A DNA stretch of 34,436 nt from Candidatus Avelusimicrobium aviculae (lineage in GTDB: Bacteria > Elusimicrobiota > Elusimicrobia > Elusimicrobiales > Elusimicrobiaceae): assembly GCA_944324655.1 (NCBI GenBank), contig CALUXF010000017.1, positions 1-34,436 of the forward strand, read 5' to 3'. Position numbers and translations under genes: made by a program. Shown piece by piece: positions 17,006 through 18,737 of the stretch. The number at the start of each line of letters is the position of its first letter. Position 1 is the first letter of the stretch. The notes beneath the pieces are model-generated. The model was not told where the DNA came from and did not search any database. It worked only from the letters and a program-made list of their open reading frames with translations.

Positions 17006-18016
17006 ATGCCAAAAACCACAGCGGATAAATTACTGGCAGAAATTGAACAAAATAAAATTTCCCCCGCCTATTTACTGACGGGGGAAGATGTTTACCGCAA
17101 AAACCAAGTGATTAACCGCTTGGTGCAGGCCCTCCAGCCGGACGATTTTAATATTTACCGCAGTGAAGCCGATAAGGCCGATTTGGGCGAAGCCCTGGCT
17201 TTAGCCAATACGGCGCCCGTGTTTTCCAATACGCGCGTGGTGATTATCACCGGTGTGGAAAAATTAAGAAAAGAGCCTAAAGAAGCGCTGATACGCTATT
17301 TGGATAACCCCCTCCCCACCACAACGCTCATTTTAACGCATAATGACGCCAAAAAATTAAAAACGGATAAAACCCTGCTGGAAGCAGCGGGGGACGCCGG
17401 GCGCGTGGCGGACTTTGCCGAACTAAAAAAAGAAGAACTAAACATATGGGCCCGCAACAAAATGCAGGAAAAGGGTCTTCAGCCGGATTTTAACGCCGTA
17501 GATATGCTGTGCGAGGCGGTGGGAGCAGAACTGTCCGCCATGGAAAATGAGATAGAAAAAATTTACCTCTACACCCTGGACCGGGCAGATAAAACCGTTA
17601 CCGCGCAGGATATTTTGGCCTGCATCGGTTTTTCCAAAGAAGAAAACCCTTTTGAGCTTTCCAACGCCATTACCTCATGCGACCGCAAACGCGCCATACA
17701 ACTGGTGGACAAATTATTAGATGACGGAGAAGAACCGGTAGGCGTTTTAAGCAAAATGACTTTCCCCATTTTAAAAATGGCCCGCATTAAACGCCTGACG
17801 GAAGCAGGACTATCCCAAAGCGAAGTGCTCCGCCTGGCCGGTCTAATGTTTTGGGAAAGCCGCTTGGTGAACTCGGCCCGGCGTATGCCTGGTCAAGCGG
17901 CTTTTAAACGCACGCTGGACCGTATCATAGAAACGGACGCGGCTTTTAAATCCTCCAGCGGGGCGGACCCCAAGACCGCTTTAAAAGGCATTTTGCTTAC
18001 GCTTTTTAATAAATGA
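17006..18016 (+). CDS. holA: DNA polymerase III subunit delta
   Basis: Delta opens the beta clamp in the clamp-loader complex. The 336-residue protein begins with the usual KISPAYLLTGEDVYRK. It then shows the strand-rich domain I segments FSNTRVVIITGVEKLRK and TTLILTHNDAKKLK, and EAVGAELSAMENEIEKIYLYT in the middle domain, typical of HolA. The C-terminal helical collar is full length. Only three bases separate it from the lptE stop and there is no convincing ribosome binding site, so translation is probably coupled. Its partner subunit gene holB lies in the minus-strand operon about 12 kb to the left. Confidence 0.93.
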   Translation: MPKTTADKLLAEIEQNKISPAYLLTGEDVYRKNQVINRLVQALQPDDFNIYRSEADKADLGEALALANTAPVFSNTRVVIITGVEKLRKEPKEALIRYLDNPLPTTTLILTHNDAKKLKTDKTLLEAAGDAGRVADFAELKKEELNIWARNKMQEKGLQPDFNAVDMLCEAVGAELSAMENEIEKIYLYTLDRADKTVTAQDILACIGFSKEENPFELSNAITSCDRKRAIQLVDKLLDDGEEPVGVLSKMTFPILKMARIKRLTEAGLSQSEVLRLAGLMFWESRLVNSARRMPGQAAFKRTLDRIIETDAAFKSSSGADPKTALKGILLTLFNK

Positions 18017-18182
18017 AAATCCGGGGCTTAGCAGCCCCGGATTATTCTCTTTTCCCGGAGAAAGATTCCACTCCCTCCAGGCATATAACGCGCCATTTAC
18101 CCCCCGGTAAATTTGTTCTGCGCACGCATCGGCATATTTAAGTATACAGGACAGAAGAAACCCATAAATTCTACTTACCGGT
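18013..18182 (-). ncRNA. Candidate small RNA (about 165-170 nt), new
   Basis: No protein gene explains this stretch. A minus-strand promoter at 18217-18189 predicts a start at about 18182. The transcript would contain three hairpins: ATTTACC/GGTAAAT with a four-base GGGG loop (18112-18095), CCTGGAG/CTCCGGG with one G-T pair (about 18082-18055), and the terminator stem ATCCGGGGCT/AGCCCCGGAT (18042-18019) followed by TTTTCATTT. It matches no RNA family I recognise; the SRP, 6S and tmRNA signatures were looked for and not seen. A 22-codon frame (18165-18097) exists inside it without a ribosome binding site. The existence of the RNA is inference. Confidence 0.4.
18019..18042. terminator. Hairpin terminator after holA, usable from both sides
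   Basis: A 10-bp stem, ATCCGGGGCT/AGCCCCGGAT, with TAGC loop. To the right the tail is ATTCTCTTTT, and on the minus strand the tail is TTTTCATTT. It ends holA and would also end the candidate minus-strand RNA. Confidence 0.75.
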
Positions 18183-18187
18183 AAGTA
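18172..18187. repeat. 16-bp perfect palindrome, possible operator
   Basis: TACTTACCGGTAAGTA is its own reverse complement. It covers the predicted start point of the minus-strand promoter from about -5 to +11, the position expected of a repressor site. The core CTTACCGGTAA occurs again at 34349-34359. Confidence 0.6.
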
Positions 18188-18188
18188 T

Positions 18189-18217
18189 ATTTTAACACAA
18201 AGAAATAAAAAAGGCAA
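18189..18217 (-). promoter_or_regulatory. Strong promoter of the candidate small RNA
   Basis: On the minus strand TTGCCT (18217-18212) and TAAAAT (18194-18189) are separated by 17 bases. The hexamer has the extended element TGT directly before it (TGTTAAAAT), identical to the uvrC and dedA promoters. Confidence 0.55.
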
Positions 18218-18409
18218 GAGAGAACGCTTTTTAGTTTTTTCAACCTTTTTTCCCTCATTGGTTTTGCCCAAAAACCCGCCCTTAAAACACCTCATTTGGC
18301 AAAATATATCCCTCTCAAAAAAGGGTGGGCAAAACGCTAGAAACAAGAGACATCACGCCGGCAAGACAAAAAGACGGCAAACCTCTTTGGTTATTGCGTT
18401 GAAAAAGGG
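18218..18409. other. Non-coding stretch with a 10-bp inverted repeat, function unknown
   Basis: I see no protein gene here. GTTTTGCCCA (18261-18270) and its exact complement TGGGCAAAAC (18326-18335) enclose 55 bases. Short CCC/GGG tracts just inside could extend the stem after an AAAA bulge. The base composition is A-rich with long homopolymer runs. Confidence 0.4.
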
Positions 18410-18455: not shown

Positions 18456-18737
18456 TTATTTAGCGGCGGATTTGTTGGCCGCTTTGGCCAAGCGGGATTT
18501 CTTGCGGGCGGCCGTTTTCCAGTGAATTACACCTTTTTTGGCGGCTTTATCAATGCAGGATTCCGCTTTTTTCAAATCTTCTTTCAACGTGGCGGCTTTG
18601 GTGGAAGCGGCGGCTTTCACGGTTTTGGTGGCCACACGGACCTTTTTAATAAGCCCTTTGTTCTGGGAAGTTCTCTTCTCAGCTTGGCGCTGGGCTTTTA
18701 AAGCGCTGGTATGTCTACCGGTTTTTAATTTTGCCAT
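18456..18737 (-). CDS. rpsT: 30S ribosomal protein S20
   Basis: S20 binds 16S rRNA early in small-subunit assembly. The 93-residue, lysine/alanine-rich protein shows the family pattern: SALKAQRQAEKRTSQNKGLI at residues 11-30, KKVRVATKTVKAA, and the C-terminal GVIHWKTAARKKSRLAKA. It is monocistronic, with GAGGAATCTTAA before the ATG, a promoter of its own and a terminator immediately behind. Confidence 0.96.
   Translation of the reverse strand: MAKLKTGRHTSALKAQRQAEKRTSQNKGLIKKVRVATKTVKAAASTKAATLKEDLKKAESCIDKAAKKGVIHWKTAARKKSRLAKAANKSAAK

Follow-up and report, generated by a model that had tools for sequence, protein, structure and literature searches.

The gap between holA and rpsT in the genome of Candidatus Avelusimicrobium aviculae (G000) carries, on its minus strand, a unit that rather probably specifies an RNA of some 165 nt under TetR repression, which would base-pair with, and so titrate, a C-rich small RNA (sRNA) conserved in the genus. 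The unit lies in the window, by which is meant the whole 34,436-nucleotide stretch of contig CALUXF010000017.1 that was analysed. Its likely origin as a gene for an outer-membrane-barrel protein (OMP) minus the coding sequence (CDS), and the C-rich sRNA of another contig that is its likely partner, both go beyond what the initial annotation had proposed for this DNA. A wider reading is put forward only tentatively, namely that the same OMP gene became a stand-alone TetR-controlled sponge RNA four times in one genus, its CDS being deleted while promoter, operator, G-rich 3'UTR element and terminator were kept.

The features of the locus are collected in Table 1. The initial annotation had described, in the gap after holA, a minus-strand -35/-10 pair with 17-base spacing and an extended -10, a perfect 16-bp palindrome over the predicted start, two internal hairpins and a terminator, and all of these elements are present, with Pfam identifying holA on one side of the gap and rpsT on the other. 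Three promoter-like sites were seen in the 901-base region against 0.8 expected from shuffles, and the sister genome G088 shares 27 of the 29 bases from the -10 to the -35. Upstream of the RNA promoter, also on the minus strand, lies a second promoter-like site, TTGCCC-18-TATATT (window 18303-18332). The palindrome TACTTACCGGTAAGTA has no other match in the window at up to three mismatches (0.07 expected). Taken from 18183 to 18015, the RNA has a predicted fold of -63 kcal/mol compared with a shuffle mean of -47.5 (z = -3.45). The terminator hairpin is symmetrical, so that holA on the plus strand could use it too.

Table 1. Features of the holA-rpsT locus in the window, and the C-rich sRNA gene on contig C6 of the same genome
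Feature	Position	Strand	Remarks
Promoter	18189..18217	-	-35 TTGCCT at 18217-18212, 17-base spacer, -10 TAAAAT at 18194-18189, extended -10 TG
Putative TetR-family operator TACTTACCGGTAAGTA	18172..18187	.	perfect 16-bp palindrome over the inferred transcription start at ~18182
Inferred RNA, ~165-170 nt	18013..18182	-	ends deduced from promoter and terminator; CDS-less remainder of an OMP transcription unit
5' part, apparently the decayed remains of the deleted OMP gene's signal peptide	18118..18165	-	by eye; start codon lost in G088
G-element CGGGGGGTAAAT	18095..18106	-	exact complement to 12 bases of the C-rich sRNA loop; 12/12 same in G088
Small hairpin TTTACC-GGGG-GGTAAA containing the G-element	18096-18111	-	fold prediction
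Internal hairpin, ~11 pairs, from the former OMP 3'UTR	18044..18085	-	fold prediction; 3'UTR aligns to G005 contig C67 ~500-596 beside the OMP stop codon
Intrinsic terminator hairpin, 11 pairs, symmetrical	18018..18043	-	23/24 aligned bases same in G088
holA (DNA polymerase III delta), convergent neighbour	17006..18016	+	Pfam
rpsT (ribosomal protein S20), upstream neighbour	18456..18737	-	Pfam
C-rich sRNA (CRS) gene, ~100-105 nt	G000:C6 63120-63016 (L239, L269)	-	promoter, hairpin, terminator; ferredoxin gene adjoins

Rfam gave no family at gathering score in the window and none in the holA-rpsT gap even with permissive settings, and a known Rfam family was thus dismissed for the RNA of the gap. 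A small peptide product was rejected as well, since neither of the two 22-aa ORFs on the minus strand keeps its start codon in G088 (by eye), leaving no conserved ORF. Near the 5' end, the RNA of both G000 and G088 can be read by eye as a decayed signal peptide, FGLFLVYLLAMSVCAQNKFTGG* in G088, where no usable start codon is left, and this 5' remnant is the least conserved part of the RNA, with 32 of 45 aligned bases the same in the two sisters.

The genus sample comprised 66 genomes, the relatives being metagenome-assembled where so titled and mostly incomplete, and absences are accordingly provisional. When the gap DNA was searched in 61 genomes, the matches fell mainly on the promoter/palindrome part and at many loci, many of which have a TetR-family gene immediately 3' of the site. 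The operator was found in 35 of the 66 genomes and the TetR protein likewise in 35, and comparison of the two lists by eye gave the same 35. At 32 loci the site precedes the TetR gene by 4-26 bp, at 10 loci it precedes AcrA-like genes, and it also marks the 5' end of the OMP unit beside holA/rpsT, the palindromic operator being common to the regulator's own promoter and the target genes. The G000 regulator (TetR_N domain PF00440, E 4.2e-15) is encoded at C18:14340-14987, its own site TACTTACCGGTAGGTA lying 24 bp before the gene and a TolC-type OEP gene following it. The pairing of operator and TetR protein is strongly supported by this distribution, and the repression by a dimeric regulator that had been suggested from the palindrome gains support with it. 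Taken together, the sites outline what appears to be a TetR regulon under autoregulation, with efflux and the outer membrane at its centre. At L170, L181, L206 and L180 the operator also precedes a gene that we take to be Omp85/POTRA-like and other, uncharacterised genes, suggesting a regulon wider than efflux.

The origin of the unit is indicated by G005, a near relative whose HolA is 89% identical. Here an intact minus-strand OMP_b-brl gene (PF13505) carries the operator at its 5' end, with rpsT behind. The window aligns with G005 over 46 bases of operator and promoter and again over about 100 bases running from just past the OMP stop codon through the terminator, and the OMP gene between these two flanks is missing from the window. 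The sister G088 (L130, CASFXV010000024.1; HolA 97%) carries the same CDS-less unit. A comparison of the gap among relatives, proposed in the initial annotation as a check on conserved promoter and structure, finds the unit kept in the sister species, and the view of the locus as a small RNA rather than a protein gene is supported by this retention and by the apparently independent rise of the CDS-less state in three further lineages.

CDS-less units were found in six genomes (G000, G088, G024, G064, G084 and G012), all of which retain the operator, in identical form, as well as the CGGGGGG element and the terminator. On a HolA tree of 61 rows, from which G006 and G010 (no HolA match) and HolA rows that were too short were omitted, the CDS-less state requires four changes, each of which is imposed by branches with good support; the lineages are G000 with G088, G024 with G064, G012, and G084. 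Loss of the OMP CDS in four lineages is strongly supported by this topology. G080, placed within the OMP clade, has lost the whole unit. Seven TetR-positive genomes (G013, G031, G033, G067, G078, G080 and G086) show no operator and no OMP in the sequence read past holA, indicating that the unit is dispensable, though some of them may never have had one. G087, with its OMP fragment and operator on separate contigs, and G066, whose contig stops 51 bases past holA, were excluded from the counts; G061 was counted among the 19 OMP units on the strength of its operator, OMP and G-element, the stretch read showing neither holA nor rpsT.

The OMP CDS itself often contains a G6 run in Asp-Trp-Gly codons. 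The run is 8 G long in the OMP of G016 (L102, C1:236633-237264) and 7 G in a paralogue of G012 (L110, G012:C27), and at this point the protein match either breaks or begins. Such a run might be a slippage hotspot and might account for the CDS having been lost repeatedly. In G001, G034, G067 and G080, genes near holA that resemble type IV pilins have a recurring T-run and inverted repeat (TTTTTTGATAAATTTTGCGTATG...CAAAATTTATCAAAAA) upstream, at several loci.

The conserved element of the 3' tail is a run of 6-8 G, located 0-17 nt past the OMP stop codon in 17 of the 19 intact units read (the exceptions being G002 and G016) and seen in every one of the six CDS-less units. In 20 of these 23 units the run follows a C, which matches a G of the C-rich sRNA loop. 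None of the five OMP-like paralogues read at other loci (L110-L114) has a G run past its stop, and G-runs directly behind stop codons are otherwise seldom seen in the loci read.

A search of G000 with ATTTACCCCCCG, the 12-mer complementary to the G-element, returned two exact sites, one in the window and the other at C6:63060-63071, which forms a hairpin loop between a promoter and a terminator. The C-rich sRNA encoded there is given the working name CRS. DNA search and extraction recovered it from 53 of the 66 genomes, many of them without TetR or OMP, and its loop reads UUCGAUUUACCCCCCGAA in 46 of the 53. A -35/-10-like pair lies upstream in all 53, the automatic placement being doubtful for G027 and G076. 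The alignment holds 52 sequences, G076 being omitted for a loop one base off the cutting pattern, and the covariance model built from it recovers G076 too. All eight pairs of the terminator stem change on both sides, and none of 500 shuffles reaches the covariation score of the 52-sequence alignment. The existence of the CRS gene is strongly supported by this conservation.

In the ten other genomes that supplied a stretch of sequence the CRS model gave nothing clear, and CRS had no match among phage records. In viral contigs the 18-base loop gave four exact matches, which were counted as chance because the model covers only 18-19 bases there. Rfam scans at E up to 1 detected no RsaE/RoxS-type family at the CRS locus or in the holA-rpsT gap, and CRS itself is without an Rfam family. 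The possibility that the window holds a CRS copy was discarded when covariance model R1 gave no match. Shine-Dalgarno targets of CRS in the window were also sought among 32 ORF starts and set aside, the best reaching -14.1 kcal/mol and none having G6 at the start. Elsewhere in G000, two near-identical Peptidase_M15_4 genes (endolysin-like), at C2:92728 (L241) and C10:26210 (L247), share the ribosome-binding site CGGGGGGTGAATAATG, for which 12 pairs with the CRS loop are predicted at -23.2 kcal/mol; both genes are possible direct targets of CRS on this model. Hfq (PF17209) had no match in the 95% complete G000 assembly, five of 14 control genomes being positive.

The G-element is complementary to the CRS loop, a relation that is strongly supported at the sequence level. 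Measured against the full complement of the loop, UUCGGGGGGUAAAUCGAA, the longest exact matches in the six CDS-less units are 12, 12, 13, 13, 9 and 8 bases, while those of the OMP units are 8-11 bases in 13 of the 19 and 4-7 in the rest; four of the six CDS-less units thus have longer complements than any intact unit. Among 527 distinct 70-base post-stop regions, 18 share at least eight consecutive bases with the loop complement, and 13 of the 18 are OMP 3' ends, five not. This comparison was judged a stronger control than dinucleotide shuffles, which keep the G-richness and leave the signal clear in about half of the units. The signal is weak in eight units, for which shuffles with a match as long numbered, out of 300, 157 for G014, 108 for G079, 95 for G020, 44 for G081, 40 for G007, 34 for G005, 29 for G021 and 26 for G012. 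The predicted co-folding gain of the CDS-less RNA with CRS is a modest -6.4 kcal/mol for G000 and -7.1 for G088, in both of which the G-element is predicted to be partly paired inside its own RNA, and -12 to -15.1 kcal/mol for the other four. As the loop is nearly invariant where the G-element exists, compensatory change between the two RNAs cannot be shown.

Conservation after the deletion was compared within the two sister pairs. G000 and G088 share 55 of 57 bases over promoter, operator and G-element, a higher proportion than in the 5' remnant (32/45; Fisher p 0.0004) or at the fourfold sites of holA (121/149; p 0.004). For G024 and G064 the agreement over promoter, operator, G-element and terminator is 84 of 87 bases, slightly above the fourfold sites (129/146; p 0.03), in a neighbourhood that is conserved in general. 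As a neutral standard fourfold sites are imperfect, and with that proviso the pattern favours, short of proof, function after CDS loss.

The proposed mechanism may be set out as follows. A TetR-family repressor that also controls its own efflux operon would occupy the palindrome and block initiation; an inducer would free TetR, and the efflux genes and the RNA would be made together. The same promoter in relatives would drive the OMP mRNA, the 3'UTR of which begins with the CGGGGGG element, and with the OMP CDS deleted from the window the promoter would drive little beyond that 3'UTR. Pairing of the G-element with the C6 loop would then keep CRS off its targets, which are presumed to be mRNAs whose ribosome-binding sites are G-rich. 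Transcription of the unit, pairing in the cell, the sponge effect, the inducer and the physiological purpose are what we infer from these sequence features.

Several other explanations bear on the same evidence. The main rival is that the unit is a passive relic, in which the OMP CDS has been deleted, promoter, operator and 3'UTR have not yet decayed, and the RNA, if transcribed, is inert. A simple internal deletion leaves its flanks by default, the terminator was possibly retained for holA, and the divergences given above for the holA fourfold sites are modest; the loss of the whole unit from G080 and the decaying signal-peptide remnant of G000 and G088 fit a relic too. Such a relic leaves it odd, however, that promoter, operator and G-element have diverged less than either the RNA's own 5' remnant or the fourfold sites, that all four independent deletions kept operator, G-element and terminator, and that the complements of 12-13 bases in four of the six CDS-less units exceed the maximum of 11 in intact ones. 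We regard an inert relic as unlikely on these grounds. It is quite unlikely, in our estimation, that the OMP mRNA is simply a target of CRS, which would bind just past the stop codon and control mRNA stability, the CDS-less units being by-products. OMP mRNAs are classic targets of sRNAs, and the position of the G-element in the intact units agrees with this account, but binding past a stop codon would not block translation initiation, and a target-only role leaves unexplained the persistence of element, promoter and operator after CDS loss in four lineages. A target role would not exclude a sponge role.

Two further alternatives concern single elements. The G-element may have another role, such as RNA end protection, protein binding or a small-ORF ribosome-binding site, with an incidental match to the C-rich loop. 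G-runs complement C-runs in general, and the window sequence GGGGGGTAAATG resembles a Shine-Dalgarno site with an ATG opening a 22-aa ORF. This ATG is ATA in G088, though, G-runs just behind stops are rare otherwise in the loci read, and the C preceding the run in 20 of 23 units matches the loop G, the matches reaching into UAAAU or UUC, all of which makes an incidental match improbable. That the palindrome is the site of another regulator, or a structural RNA element, has in its favour that the operator overlaps the RNA in part, making folding conceivable; given the co-occurrence of TetR and operator in the same 35 genomes and the 32 loci with the palindrome directly upstream of the TetR gene itself, it is extremely unlikely.

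If the wider reading, with its four separate conversions, is right, lasting selection would have acted on the noncoding tail and not on the protein. Through this tail the regulator of an efflux pump would be coupled to a C-rich sRNA that is spread across the genus, in a genome where no Hfq was detected. Were a TetR regulator of efflux to work via an RNA sponge, post-transcriptional control would be tied to the sensing of drugs or toxic compounds. For the origin of new regulatory RNAs, a single genus presents intact mRNAs with a pairing element in the tail, CDS-less units that differ in age, and loss of the whole unit. The analysis also uncovers an sRNA conserved across most of the genus, together with a concrete, testable partner.

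A search of the open-access literature found no work on sRNAs of this phylum and none on a TetR-controlled sponge of this kind, and several systems elsewhere share single aspects with it. RepG of Helicobacter pylori targets the homopolymeric G-run of tlpB, which is variable and situated in the 5' leader (PMC8295292), compared with 6-8 G in the 3'UTR here. SroC/GcvB, SkatA/PrrF1 and PspH/Spot 42 have the sponge sequence in the 3' part of an mRNA, as in the intact OMP units; according to PMC9438474 they derive from coding transcripts, whereas the units of six genomes here lack a CDS and keep a promoter of their own, and G000 yielded no Hfq. G-rich regions of RsaI bind C-rich partner sRNAs such as RsaE in Staphylococcus aureus, although RsaI, as described in PMC8216469, also has a C-rich region for mRNAs, and no homology with it was seen here. 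By analogy, the closest working model for the window unit is offered by Bacillus subtilis, where the G-rich RosA is a sponge of the C-rich RoxS and of FsrA, and the RosA promoter is repressed by CcpA through a predicted site at the start point, -1 to +12 (PMC8216469). The two cases share a stand-alone G-rich RNA directed at C-rich regions of a conserved sRNA, and a repressor site at the start. They differ in phylum, in that neither partner here has an Rfam match, and in the sponge effect, which is predicted here from sequence; furthermore, the repressor here would be of the TetR type and tied to efflux, and the RNA appears to be what became of an OMP mRNA once the CDS was lost.
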